This document shows positions 8,134 through 38,949 of a stretch of DNA of 64,000 bases, one piece after another. The stretch is from Cognatundibacterium jejuense (GTDB lineage Bacteria; Pseudomonadota; Gammaproteobacteria; Burkholderiales; Burkholderiaceae_D), in contig NZ_JACOFV010000011.1 in assembly GCF_014284255.1 (NCBI RefSeq), positions 1 through 64,000 on the forward strand, read 5' to 3'. Numbering within the stretch: position 1 is the first letter of the stretch; each line of letters starts with the position of its first letter. The translations under genes and the position numbers were made by a program. Below the pieces are notes generated by a model, which saw only the letters and a program-made list of their open reading frames with translations, did not search any database and was not told where the DNA came from.

Positions 8134-8493
8134 TGGTGGAGTCGGCGGGAATCGAACCCGCGTCCAGAAGCACTCTACAGACAGTTCTACATACTTAGTG
8201 CTGCCATTTGATTTAATCTTGACGACGCGGACGCACACGCTGCGGCAAGACGAGTTACCTATTATTTAATCCTGAGCCAAGTAACCCGACTCAAGACGAT
8301 TCCATATGAATGTCCTTACTGCTGTTGCCAGCCCACCCTATGGACGAGGTAGTGTAAGGTTAGCCGGTATTAAGCGGCTAATGCGTACGAGTTATCGTTT
8401 GCAGTTATAAATTTCAGATTGTATTTACGAGGTAGTCTGGCCTCGGTATGCCCTGCGCTGCTTTGCAACCCCTGTCGAAACCTGGTCGACCCC
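8134..8493 (-). ncRNA. ssrA: transfer-messenger RNA (tmRNA)
   Basis: One-piece tmRNA of about 360 nt that rescues stalled ribosomes with SmpB. The 3' end carries the tRNA-like T arm and acceptor (GGGTTCGATTCCCGCC then GACTCCACCA), with encoded CCA at 8134. The 5' end GGGGTCGACC (8493) pairs with CGACTCC to close the acceptor stem. The tag frame on the minus strand, 8402 down to 8370, reads ANDNSYALAA and stop TAA; with the resume alanine this gives (A)ANDNSYALAA. ALAA is the usual ClpXP/ClpAP degron end. The gene is transcribed away from gph. Confidence 0.95.
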
Positions 8494-35405: not shown

Positions 35406-35906
35406 ATGAAAAAACTTTTAGGTTTCATTTCTCTGTTGTCTTTTCTCGTTTGCCTCCCGGTGGTCGCCGAGGAAAGTCAGGTCCAGACGATACAAAAACT
35501 CAATCAATTCATCGACGAATGGCACGATGATGCAGCGCATTCGCGCATGGCCTATTTCGATAAAATAGCAAAAGACGGCGTATATATTGGTACCGACAAA
35601 ACAGAGCGCTGGACGCGTGAGGACTTTAAGGTCTGGGCGAAACCGGCTTTTGCCCGACCCAGCGCCTGGGCATTTAAAGTGCTGGATCGTCACGTGGCAA
35701 TGACGATCGATCAAAGCGTCATCTGGTTTGATGAGCAATTACAAACGCAAATGGGCATTTGCCAGGCTTCTGGCGTGGTGCGAAATACGTCTGAAGGTTT
35801 TCAAATTGAACATTATCAACTGTCTTTAACAGTGCCCAATGACTTGATTGATTACCTGTCTGAAGGCGTTAAGAAAAACGAGCAGAAGCAAAAAAACAGT
35901 CCATAA
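35406..35906 (+). CDS. secreted SnoaL/NTF2-like protein
   Basis: 166 residues. Signal peptide (KKLLGFISLLSFLVCLPVVA, cleavage about residue 22), then a single NTF2/SnoaL-like domain (LNQFIDEWHDDAAHSRMAYF, then DGVYIGTDKTERWTREDFK and WFDEQL). Such domains are common in DUF4440-type secreted proteins of unknown function. The ATG at 35406 starts the signal peptide; an in-frame ATG 21 bases earlier would add seven residues. Placed just before the riboswitch-controlled protease gene but with about 230 bases and AT-rich DNA between, so probably a separate transcript. Confidence 0.75.
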   Translation: MKKLLGFISLLSFLVCLPVVAEESQVQTIQKLNQFIDEWHDDAAHSRMAYFDKIAKDGVYIGTDKTERWTREDFKVWAKPAFARPSAWAFKVLDRHVAMTIDQSVIWFDEQLQTQMGICQASGVVRNTSEGFQIEHYQLSLTVPNDLIDYLSEGVKKNEQKQKNSP

Positions 35907-36082
35907 AAAAAGGGCATATAAGGCAGTGAGTTTGTGTACTTTGCAAGAGCATCTGTGTTCAATTTCGGAAATAATGTGAAGACGATATGTGAAAATAGAA
36001 AATGTTAGTAAATAGTTGATTTATAAAGACAATTTTTTGTCAGAACACTATTTTTATCTGTGATAATTAACATTTGTTTGCT

Positions 36083-36110
36083 TTGATTTTTCGAGTTTTC
36101 TTCTTAAACT
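36083..36110 (+). promoter_or_regulatory. candidate promoter of the riboswitch-protease transcript
   Basis: TTGATT (36083-36088) and TAAACT (36105-36110) are separated by 16 bases, a fair sigma-70 match, and would start transcription near 36117, about 25 bases before the riboswitch core. The region is AT-rich. It is a visual match only. Confidence 0.4.
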
Positions 36111-36137
36111 TTGTGTGTTGTATTTTGAAGTAAAATT

Positions 36138-36220
36138 TTTGGGCAAACCCGATGAAAGTCGGGGACGCAAAGCTTCCGGCCTACGGCGTTAGATCGCTAA
36201 GGTAGCGGGGTTGCCGGTGG
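36138..36220 (+). promoter_or_regulatory. cyclic di-GMP-I (GEMM-I) riboswitch
   Basis: The core matches the GEMM-I aptamer closely: GGGCAAAC (36141-36148), a first hairpin capped by the GAAA tetraloop (CCCGAT-GAAA-GTCGGG), GGGACGCAAAGC, TTCCGGCCTACGG, then GGTAGCGGGGTTGCCGGTGG at 36201-36220. The P1 stem can be seen as GGCAA (36142-36146) pairing with TTGCC (36211-36215). It lies in the 5' leader of the S53 protease gene, ending about 65 bases before its ATG. It senses the second messenger c-di-GMP. Whether it turns expression on or off is inference (see the overlapping hairpin). Confidence 0.92.
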
Positions 36221-36261
36221 GCGAATTCATTTTTCTGTCACCGTGCGTGCGCAGCCTTTTT
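36207..36261 (+). terminator. possible expression-platform hairpin overlapping riboswitch P1
   Basis: GGTTGC (36209-36214) can pair with GCAGCC (36251-36256), and CGGTG (36215-36219) with CACCG (36239-36243), leaving a 7-base bulge; TTTTT follows (36257-36261). The 5' arm uses the same bases as the 3' strand of P1, so the two structures exclude each other. This would be a terminator released when c-di-GMP stabilises P1. The structure was found by eye and is not proven. Confidence 0.4.
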
Positions 36262-36282
36262 CCATCCTGGAGAGCTGACACC

Positions 36283-38949
36283 ATGAGTATCAAACAAAAC
36301 GTATTGTTTTCTTCTGTTCCTGTTACCCTTTCTGCTCCACTCGCTCGTACCTTGGTATCTGCAGGGCTTTTGGCTTTGTTGAGTGCTTGTGGTAGCGGCA
36401 CCAGTTCTACCAGTGCCAACTCCAATTCATCCGTTGCACAAATCTCTACCGCGACGACGACTTTAGATTTGCCAGTTATCGGCTCCGCTGCTACACCACC
36501 TGATCAAATAGCGACACCAACATTTCACATCGCACCAGTACTGTTAAATGAACCTTCAGACGTTGATGCGTTGGATGCTAATAGCTCTGCCCAAATAGCA
36601 GCAAATAAGCAATTTGTTCCAACTGAACTACAAGGCTTGTCGTCCCGCCGCTTGACGGTTGACATATTGAATGCAACTCGTGGGGGGCAAAACTTCAGCG
36701 CAAGCAACATCTCTGCTGACCAGTCTATTCAACCAAAGGTGAATAATGCGGTGGTCGTTACTTATACCCCTGCACAGATTCGTGCTGCTTACGGTTTGCC
36801 AGCTTTGCCCGCGAATACGACTGGTTTAAGTGCTGCGCAAGCGGCGCAGTTAGGCGCTGGTCAAACAATTTATCTGGTCGATGCACAACATGATCCTTAC
36901 GTTGTTCAAGAGCTGGCAGCGTTCAATCAAAAATTTGGCTTGCCAACTTGTACTACACAAACAATAGCGACGAACGCGAGTTTGCCGCTGGCGCCAGCTT
37001 CAGTTACCGCGGGTTGTGTATTGTCTGTCGTTTATAACACTTCAAATGGAACGATGACGAGTACTGCTCCGGCATACGATTCAGGCTGGGCAACGGAAAT
37101 TACATTAGATGTGCAATGGGCGCATGCGACTGCACCTTTGGCGCGAATTGTGTTGATCGAAGCACCAGATGCGTCCCTCAATAGCTTGATTGGCGGCGTC
37201 AAACTCGCTAATGCGATGGGGCCAGGCGTGGTATCGATGAGCTTTGGTGCTTCTGAGGGAAATTGGACTTCATCTGTTGATTCCGCTTTTACTGGCGCCA
37301 AAATGACATACGTCGCTGCGACTGGTGATTCTGGCGCAGCTGTCGATTGGCCGGCTGTATCGCCGAATGTGCTGGCAGTCAGTGGTACATCGCTCGCTTA
37401 TTCAGGTAGCGGTTCTCGCTCTGAAACGGTATGGTCCGGCACGGGTGGCGGTATCAGTGCTTATACTTCCACGCCATCGTATCAAGCCAGTGGTGTACCA
37501 GGCGTTGGTAGCCTCCCACGCCGCAGCGTTGCAGACGTGGCTTTCAATGCAGATCCCTCTACTGGTCAATATCTGGCAGTGATCAATCAGGGTAGCAGTA
37601 CTGTCAGCTGGTTGAGTGCTGGTGGTACAAGCCTGGCAACACCACAGTGGGCAGGCGTAATTACTGTTGCGAATGCGATTCGTGCGCAAAACGCAAAAGC
37701 TGCTTTGGGTCTGACGCAGCCAGTATTGTATGGACAGATTGCTGGCGTACCAGGTTCTTACGCGAGTACGTTTTACGATGTAACTTCCGGTTCCGATGGT
37801 AGCTGCTCGACTTGTAATGCAAAAGTTGGTTACGACGAAACGACTGGCTTGGGTACGCCCAATGTCACCAGTTTGCTGACCTATCTGGCAGGTAATAGCG
37901 CTGCAAGTGCACCAGTAGTGACAGGCGCAAGCATTAGTGGTCAGGTCGGTACAGCACTCTCATTCACGGTATCAGCTTCATCGCCAAATCCTTTGACCTT
38001 TAGCTTAAGCGGTGCGCCATCTGGCATGACGATCAATGCTGCTGGCGTAGTGACTTGGGCAACGCCAGTTGCTGGTACTTATTCTGTGACTGTTACGGCG
38101 GTAGACAGCAAGGCCAAGTTGTCTGGCAGTGGTGTGTACACAGTAAAAATTTCACCCCCAGTTGCTCCAGTGGTGACGGGTGGCGCGATCAGCGGCAAAG
38201 TCGGTACTGCATTTTCTTTCAACGTCAGCGTGACAGATGTGAATCCAACGACCTTGGCACTCAGCGGCGCACCGTCTGGTATGACCGTGAACAGCGCAGG
38301 TGTCGTAAGCTGGGCGACGCCAGTTTTGGGTACGTACTCGGTGACCGTGACTGCAACGGATAGCAAAAATGGTTTAACTGGCAAGGGCGTGTATGTTGTT
38401 ACGATTGCAGCGCAACCTGCTCCAACGGTTCCAGGTGGCAGCATCTCCGGCAAGGCTGGTACTGCATTGTCATTCAGCGTGACTGTTGCCAATAGCAATC
38501 CACTGACATACAGCTTGAGTGGCGCACCATCCGGAATGACAATCAGCACCGCAGGCGTGGTCAACTGGGCAAATCCAGTCGTTGGTAGCTATAACGTCAC
38601 AGTGACAGTGAAAGATACTAAGACTGGTTTAAGTGGTCAGGGCGTGTACGCTGTTGTAATCAGCGCTGCAACGCCAGTCGGTCCAATTATTACTGCCGCT
38701 CCAATGACAGGTGTTGCTGGTAAGCCGATGTCGGGAACGATTAGCTTTGCCGATGCTGGCGCGACTGGTTTGTCGGTCTCGATCTCTGGCGTGCCACTGG
38801 GCATGAGCTTCTCTATGGGTAGCGGTATGTCATTGGTTGCTAGCTGGCCAAATCCCGTCACCGGTAGCTATACCCTGAAAGTGACAGTAACTGATAATCT
38901 GGGACGGTCCGCTACAGCATCTGTTCCGGTCACGATAAATGCGCACTGA
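36283..38949 (+). CDS. surface lipoprotein sedolisin (S53 peptidase) with Ig-like repeats
   Basis: 888 residues. Lipoprotein signal with lipobox LSAC (C36). The S53 domain starts near YTPAQIRAAYGLP (about 161) and has the sedolisin catalytic set: E272 and D276 (TEITLDVQ), D349 (ATGDSGA) and S450 (AGGTSLATPQWAG), plus the calcium site (YDVTSGSDG, then ETTGLGTPN). From about 543 there are four Ig-like repeats of about 85 residues (He_PIG type: SGAPSGMTINAAGVVTWATP and alike). The usual propeptide domain is not recognisable in the roughly 120 low-complexity residues before the catalytic domain. ATG 36283 has GGAGAG 9 bases upstream. A c-di-GMP riboswitch lies in the leader. Likely a secreted or surface-held protease. 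Confidence 0.9.
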   Translation: MSIKQNVLFSSVPVTLSAPLARTLVSAGLLALLSACGSGTSSTSANSNSSVAQISTATTTLDLPVIGSAATPPDQIATPTFHIAPVLLNEPSDVDALDANSSAQIAANKQFVPTELQGLSSRRLTVDILNATRGGQNFSASNISADQSIQPKVNNAVVVTYTPAQIRAAYGLPALPANTTGLSAAQAAQLGAGQTIYLVDAQHDPYVVQELAAFNQKFGLPTCTTQTIATNASLPLAPASVTAGCVLSVVYNTSNGTMTSTAPAYDSGWATEITLDVQWAHATAPLARIVLIEAPDASLNSLIGGVKLANAMGPGVVSMSFGASEGNWTSSVDSAFTGAKMTYVAATGDSGAAVDWPAVSPNVLAVSGTSLAYSGSGSRSETVWSGTGGGISAYTSTPSYQASGVPGVGSLPRRSVADVAFNADPSTGQYLAVINQGSSTVSWLSAGGTSLATPQWAGVITVANAIRAQNAKAALGLTQPVLYGQIAGVPGSYASTFYDVTSGSDGSCSTCNAKVGYDETTGLGTPNVTSLLTYLAGNSAASAPVVTGASISGQVGTALSFTVSASSPNPLTFSLSGAPSGMTINAAGVVTWATPVAGTYSVTVTAVDSKAKLSGSGVYTVKISPPVAPVVTGGAISGKVGTAFSFNVSVTDVNPTTLALSGAPSGMTVNSAGVVSWATPVLGTYSVTVTATDSKNGLTGKGVYVVTIAAQPAPTVPGGSISGKAGTALSFSVTVANSNPLTYSLSGAPSGMTISTAGVVNWANPVVGSYNVTVTVKDTKTGLSGQGVYAVVISAATPVGPIITAAPMTGVAGKPMSGTISFADAGATGLSVSISGVPLGMSFSMGSGMSLVASWPNPVTGSYTLKVTVTDNLGRSATASVPVTINAH

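Follow-up and report, generated by a model that had tools for sequence, protein, structure and literature searches.

The gene that starts at position 36283 of the window (the whole 64,000-nucleotide stretch of Cognatundibacterium jejuense DNA analysed here) raises two questions: whether the element in its leader is a genuine c-di-GMP riboswitch, and in which direction such a switch would control the lipoprotein protease encoded downstream. A sequence-only reading had placed a GEMM-I aptamer before an S53 lipoprotein gene and had proposed a covariance-model search with RF01051 as a check. That search was run and returned a match far over the cut-off:

36132–36218, plus strand: c-di-GMP-I (GEMM-I, RF01051) aptamer, cmscan score 80.9 bits against a gathering cut-off of 35, E 2.4e-14.
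36283–38949, plus strand: gene for an S53 (sedolisin/kumamolisin) lipoprotein protease of 888 amino acids, with ATG at 36283 and a stop codon ending at 38949.

The cmscan alignment is full length (model positions 1–87 of 87, no truncation), and the S53 gene starts 65 nt downstream of the aptamer. All of the aptamer motifs named in the earlier reading are present in the sequence; the interval it gave ended correctly at the stop of the gene (38949), while its start lay 6 bases inside the aptamer. RF01051 matched only once in the whole 4.44-Mb C. jejuense genome and nowhere in 14 control genomes. Aligned to model position 11 is a G; we take this position to be G20, the pocket guanine that marks a preference for c-di-GMP over cGAMP. 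In cGAMP-sensing variants G20 is replaced by A. Taken as a whole, the window leader did not fold better than its shuffles (z -0.60), and a scan for sigma-70-like promoters in the region 35900–36330 found none. Elsewhere in the window a tmRNA gene was detected at 8134–8493 on the minus strand (RF00023, 216.5 bits). Judged by its sequence, the leader contains a real GEMM-I riboswitch, predicted to bind c-di-GMP and to change expression of the gene that follows.

The encoded protein was divided into three regions:

36283–36390, plus strand: lipoprotein signal peptide, identified from the sequence, with lipobox LSAC at residues 33–36 and lipidation at Cys36.
37060–37893, plus strand: S53 catalytic region, from the alignment to kumamolisin-As, with Glu272, Asp276, oxyanion Asp349 and Ser450.
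37912–38937, plus strand: C-terminal Ig-like repeats, four He_PIG stretches and a Big_9 match (Pfam).

The window protein matched no protease model of Pfam at E values of 0.01 or below, and NCBIfam likewise gave nothing over a cut-off. A phmmer search against solved structures, on the other hand, matched kumamolisin-As at 1.4e-21 over residues 260–537. A profile was also made from 48 sequences, the window protein plus 47 drawn from the 73 named orthologs with a riboswitch that are described below; its E values were 1.1e-29 for kumamolisin-As, 1.6e-18 for sedolisin and 1.4e-18 for tripeptidyl-peptidase 1. Glu272, Asp276, Asp349 and Ser450, which we take to be the S53 triad and oxyanion positions, are invariant in all 48 aligned sequences, as is Cys36, and in 71 of the 73 named orthologs a simple lipobox pattern occurs among residues 1–60. 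The S53 assignment, the Ig-like repeats and the lipoprotein character put forward in the earlier reading are all borne out by these data. The catalytic Glu, Asp, oxyanion Asp and Ser thus align with those of kumamolisin-As and sedolisin (MEROPS S53). Unlike those enzymes, the window protein has an N-terminal lipobox and C-terminal Ig-like repeats, and no protease or prodomain model is found among the 25 of 28 Pfam families listed for the 48 members (E up to 0.1). More than 200 residues separate Cys36 from the region matched by kumamolisin-As. A location in the outer membrane and exposure at the surface are predicted, the latter from the lipobox; proteolytic activity, and action on the targets considered below, are putative.

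Conservation of the gene pair was assessed in two samples. The first consisted of 98 genomes, C. jejuense and relatives, of which 57 carried an RF01051 match over the cut-off. A match to the window S53 protein was found in 25 of the 98; 21 of these were full orthologs, and all 21 had GEMM-I directly upstream. More distant S53-like matches in two genomes (G052 and G036; about 40% identity) were not beside a GEMM-I match. The second sample comprised the best 80 of 184 relatives from a contig scan, mostly Burkholderiales by title; the covariance model used to search it was trained on 46 aptamers, including 14 taken from S53 leaders. GEMM-I lay just upstream in 73 of these best 80 named loci, 11 of the 73 apparently being the same records as first-sample genomes. 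Among the seven loci without a match, L155 and L193 start near contig ends. The other five (L185, L201, L207, L209 and L217) gave no convincing GEMM-I match even with filters off and have in common an alternative short leader, in which a promoter motif resembles GTGCGATAATT (L209 has GTGCGAAAATT); because a match is missing and another promoter-like leader is present, GEMM-I appears to be absent or replaced in this Rugamonas/Duganella-type group. The link first noted in the window, between GEMM-I and an S53 lipoprotein with Ig-like repeats in a betaproteobacterium, is therefore kept in 21 of 21 and 73 of 80 loci, and control of the S53 protease by the riboswitch is well supported.

How might the aptamer communicate with the gene? 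RNAalifold, applied to the 21 first-sample leaders, returned unprompted a helix between aptamer positions 8–13 and a block upstream of the Shine–Dalgarno (SD) sequence. This GCCCUC-like block usually lies 8–13 nt ahead of the SD and could base-pair with the aptamer strand GAGGGC, where the ligand-contacting G presumably resides. In the 21-leader alignment alone, covariation fell short of significance (59 of 500 shuffles), and a larger set was needed. We assembled 83 S53 leaders (the 73 named and 10 others, window included; 81 distinct) and located the GCCCUC block by alignment of the leader tails rather than by complementarity. All six pairs of the switching helix can form in 62 of the 81 distinct leaders, and 93.0% of its cells are paired, compared with 34–62% when the strands are slid by 1–4 columns. 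Double changes occur in 13 cells at three of the six positions. None of 2000 shuffles reached the observed pairing or number of double-change cells, 210 reached the number of positions and 9 that of pair types, a result that is not to be read as a probability because related sequences are not independent. With five divergent leaders removed (n = 76), 95.4% of cells are paired, with 9 double-change cells at 3 positions. Three Rugamonas leaders (L187, L205 and L212) have aptamer strand GAAGGC, leader strand GCCUUC or GUCUUC and SD GGGAAG, all changed together. Chance alone yields a six-pair complement somewhere in the leader at a frequency of 0.07–0.83, judged from shuffles of the 20 leaders that contain such a complement; the argument for the switching helix lies in the constant position of the block and its covariation, not in mere complementarity. 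Leaders of non-S53 GEMM-I genes gave no clear signal for a complement of the aptamer strand.

The window leader is an outlier in this set, with four of the six pairs, and two further features are relevant to it:

36254–36257, plus strand: GCCU, the window's short version of the GCCCUC strand, which can pair with aptamer GGGC at 36141–36144.
36252–36277, plus strand: predicted hairpin sequestering the SD GGAG (36269–36272), -7.7 kcal/mol alone.

Pairing of GCCU with GGGC forms in folds of nascent lengths 128–144, and the window SD has a predicted unpaired probability of 0.01 in both states.

For the direction of control, we computed the cost of opening the region from the SD to the start codon with either the aptamer or the switching helix forced. 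This covered 55 of the 83 leaders, selected for an aptamer of 87 nt, all six pairs and an SD that could be recognised, a set to which the window does not belong. Opening costs 10.3 kcal/mol with the aptamer and 5.3 kcal/mol with the switching helix, and in 54 of the 55 leaders the cost in the bound state is higher by more than 0.5 kcal/mol. The mean difference, 5.0 kcal/mol, compares with 1.95–3.37 in 20 shuffled sets. Calculated alone, the window leader behaves in the same direction (11.2 kcal/mol against 6.3 or 7.8). Accessibility of the SD itself was also considered. Among the 21 first-sample leaders it was lower in the bound than in the free state in 18, and 4-nt accessibility was higher with the switching helix in 13 and lower in 2; on the 55 leaders it was higher in 27 and lower in 8, and the state difference (0.095) was below that of shuffled leaders (0.166). 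This measure was consequently dropped as evidence for an OFF switch. The sign of control is thus unproven, since opening cost favours OFF and SD accessibility is not above its control; repression by c-di-GMP is favoured as a reasoned prediction of these fold models, not shown.

On this evidence we propose, with a probability of about 0.58, that the locus is a working class I riboswitch controlling a lipid-anchored, exported S53 protease in cis as an OFF switch, by means of the switching helix. In cells without c-di-GMP, the leader strand GCCCUC would pair with the aptamer strand GAGGGC, leaving the ribosome entry region easier to open, and protease would be made. Binding of c-di-GMP would hold the GAGGGC strand in the ligand pocket and free the GCCCUC strand, which would then close with the SD and start region and turn the protease off; in a few relatives a weak terminator may act instead of this closure. 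It follows from repression by the ligand that the enzyme would act on cell-surface or extracellular proteins at low c-di-GMP, that is, in motile or dispersing cells.

It is also conceivable, although we consider it unlikely, that the window leader is an ON switch, based on an alternative structure:

36207–36258, plus strand: anti-aptamer, terminator-like hairpin, GGGGUUGC with GCAGCCUU, extended by CGGUG with CACCG and followed by a U run.

Here the ligand-free leader would use aptamer sequence to form the hairpin (GGGGUUGCCGGUG ... CACCG ... GCAGCCUUUUU), c-di-GMP would prevent it, and protease would be made in sessile cells with high c-di-GMP. The isolated hairpin is stable (-18.5 kcal/mol), precedes a U run and excludes the aptamer, and precedents exist: PMC9262584 describes a cGAMP-sensing pilM switch of Geobacter that works likewise, and PMC6366702 an ON switch of class I in Bacillus thuringiensis. 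Both papers indicate that either sign occurs among class I switches, and PMC6366702, a review, cautions against extrapolation from one species to another. The hairpin, however, contains a 7-nt bulge and a 17-nt loop, and a terminator scan did not return it, flagging instead a different five-pair hairpin at 36211–36224 (1 found, 0.5 expected). Across the set, terminator-like hairpins occur in 14 of 83 leaders compared with 8.2 expected from shuffles, and intrinsic termination was set aside as a general mechanism, perhaps with the exception of the Curvibacter leader L204. The covarying helix and the opening costs, moreover, point to OFF. In L204 a strong terminator-like hairpin (-13.0 kcal/mol) lies just after the aptamer, and the usual platform is replaced.

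The possibility that the window aptamer is a relic, its leader no longer switching and the protease constitutively low, appears quite improbable. Consistent with a relic, only the window among the 21 first-sample leaders has unpaired switching-helix cells, its SD is closed in both states, and the five orthologs above have no detectable riboswitch; yet its aptamer is intact and high scoring, and a state-dependent opening cost persists (11.2 versus 6.3–7.8 kcal/mol). Least probable of all is that the aptamer binds 3',3'-cGAMP instead of c-di-GMP, given that a G occupies the presumed G20 position both in the window and throughout the 21 first-sample leaders and that the genome has 45 GGDEF matches, although these are silent on which dinucleotide is made. 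Variants of the same family do sense cGAMP, according to PMC8835794 and PMC6274999.

A c-di-GMP riboswitch before a surface protease has a counterpart in Clostridioides difficile, as the sequence-only reading had pointed out; that reading left the sign of control open. According to PMC6366702 and PMC6447587, the zmpI/PPEP-1 gene (CD2830) is preceded by a class I c-di-GMP riboswitch and repressed by c-di-GMP, and the resemblance holds for PPEP-1 (PMC6366702): in both cases a class I switch precedes a secreted protease, with repression known there and predicted here. The systems differ in the enzyme and its surroundings. PPEP-1 is a zinc metalloprotease whose gene lies next to that of an adhesin, CD2831, which is regulated inversely, whereas the protein described here is a serine-carboxyl S53 lipoprotein with Ig-like repeats, from betaproteobacteria. 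No conserved partner frame was apparent: in 74 loci, each compared over one frame on the upstream side and at most two on the downstream side, no neighbouring frame is conserved (the largest cluster of these mechanical reading frames covers 13 loci), and the class I match is the only one in the genome. The suggestion that the protease trims or releases adhesins found no support here, and adhesin trimming is at present a guess. The mode of control also differs, since the functional class I switches of C. difficile act by transcription termination, and control here is probably translational. In this respect the leader would resemble Vc1 and Vc2 of Vibrio cholerae, Gram-negative class I switches that do not act via termination (PMC6366702); unlike the present switch, they are followed by orthologues of gbpA and tfoX rather than by a protease gene. 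Among the open papers listed, we found no report of GEMM-I paired with an S53 protease in this way, and the earlier claim of novelty is accordingly plausible; PMC9144310, PMC12456836 and PMC6755753 are, in the parts seen, unrelated to this pairing.

GEMM-I loci in the 98 genomes were also surveyed for the genes that follow them. Of the 84 matches over the cut-off, 52 lie in the window's family and the other 32 come from the rest of the order. Downstream proteins were examined with Pfam in 29 cases and otherwise assigned by tblastn to representatives. Within the family, proteases of unrelated families lie downstream of 40 of the 52 loci: 21 S53 proteases, 13 zinc metalloproteases with HExxHxxGxxH, one M11-like metalloprotease and five subtilases. 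These 40 loci are not independent events, because the 21 S53 loci are orthologs. One subtilase assignment (G012b) is less certain, the gene lying 422 nt downstream of its GEMM-I, and one metalloprotease frame (G022a) is interrupted. The remaining loci precede eight response regulators, one FliD and three genes that were not classified. Several of the GEMM-I-linked proteases bear Ig-like or PKD domains; export of those outside the S53 group is putative. At one locus (L082), two consecutive metalloprotease genes each have their own GEMM-I aptamer. Eight lower-scoring GEMM-I variants with a changed P3, from the window's genus (L061, L070, L074, L077, L078, L079, L080 and L083), lie before response-regulator genes in what is apparently a chemotaxis- or pilus-type operon. 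Outside the family, subtilases follow at least three of the 32 loci, and seven were not classified. DUF1631 genes follow a further eight (L101, L103, L104, L111, L116, L119, L120 and L130), and this family of unknown function may be a c-di-GMP output.

Unrelated protease families (S53, two kinds of zinc metalloprotease and subtilases) would thus each have been placed under c-di-GMP-I, and the 40 of 52 loci in this one family sample suggest that this riboswitch class is generally used there to control proteases. We tentatively extend this, at somewhat less than even odds, to the proposal that in Oxalobacteraceae-type Burkholderiales c-di-GMP-I chiefly controls exported proteases, the S53 branch being an OFF switch with a dedicated expression platform, whose strand would pair with either the ligand-pocket strand or the ribosome entry region, and an independent counterpart of PPEP-1. 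Because the pairing of riboswitch and protease recurs in many relatives, our data suggest that c-di-GMP decides when these cells cut extracellular proteins. In a large bacterial group, an extracellular protease would then be coupled directly, at the RNA level, to a widespread lifestyle signal. The prediction is that low c-di-GMP releases surface proteolysis; if true, this would add to C. difficile PPEP-1 a second and unrelated example of the same logic, in which surface proteolysis is released when c-di-GMP falls.
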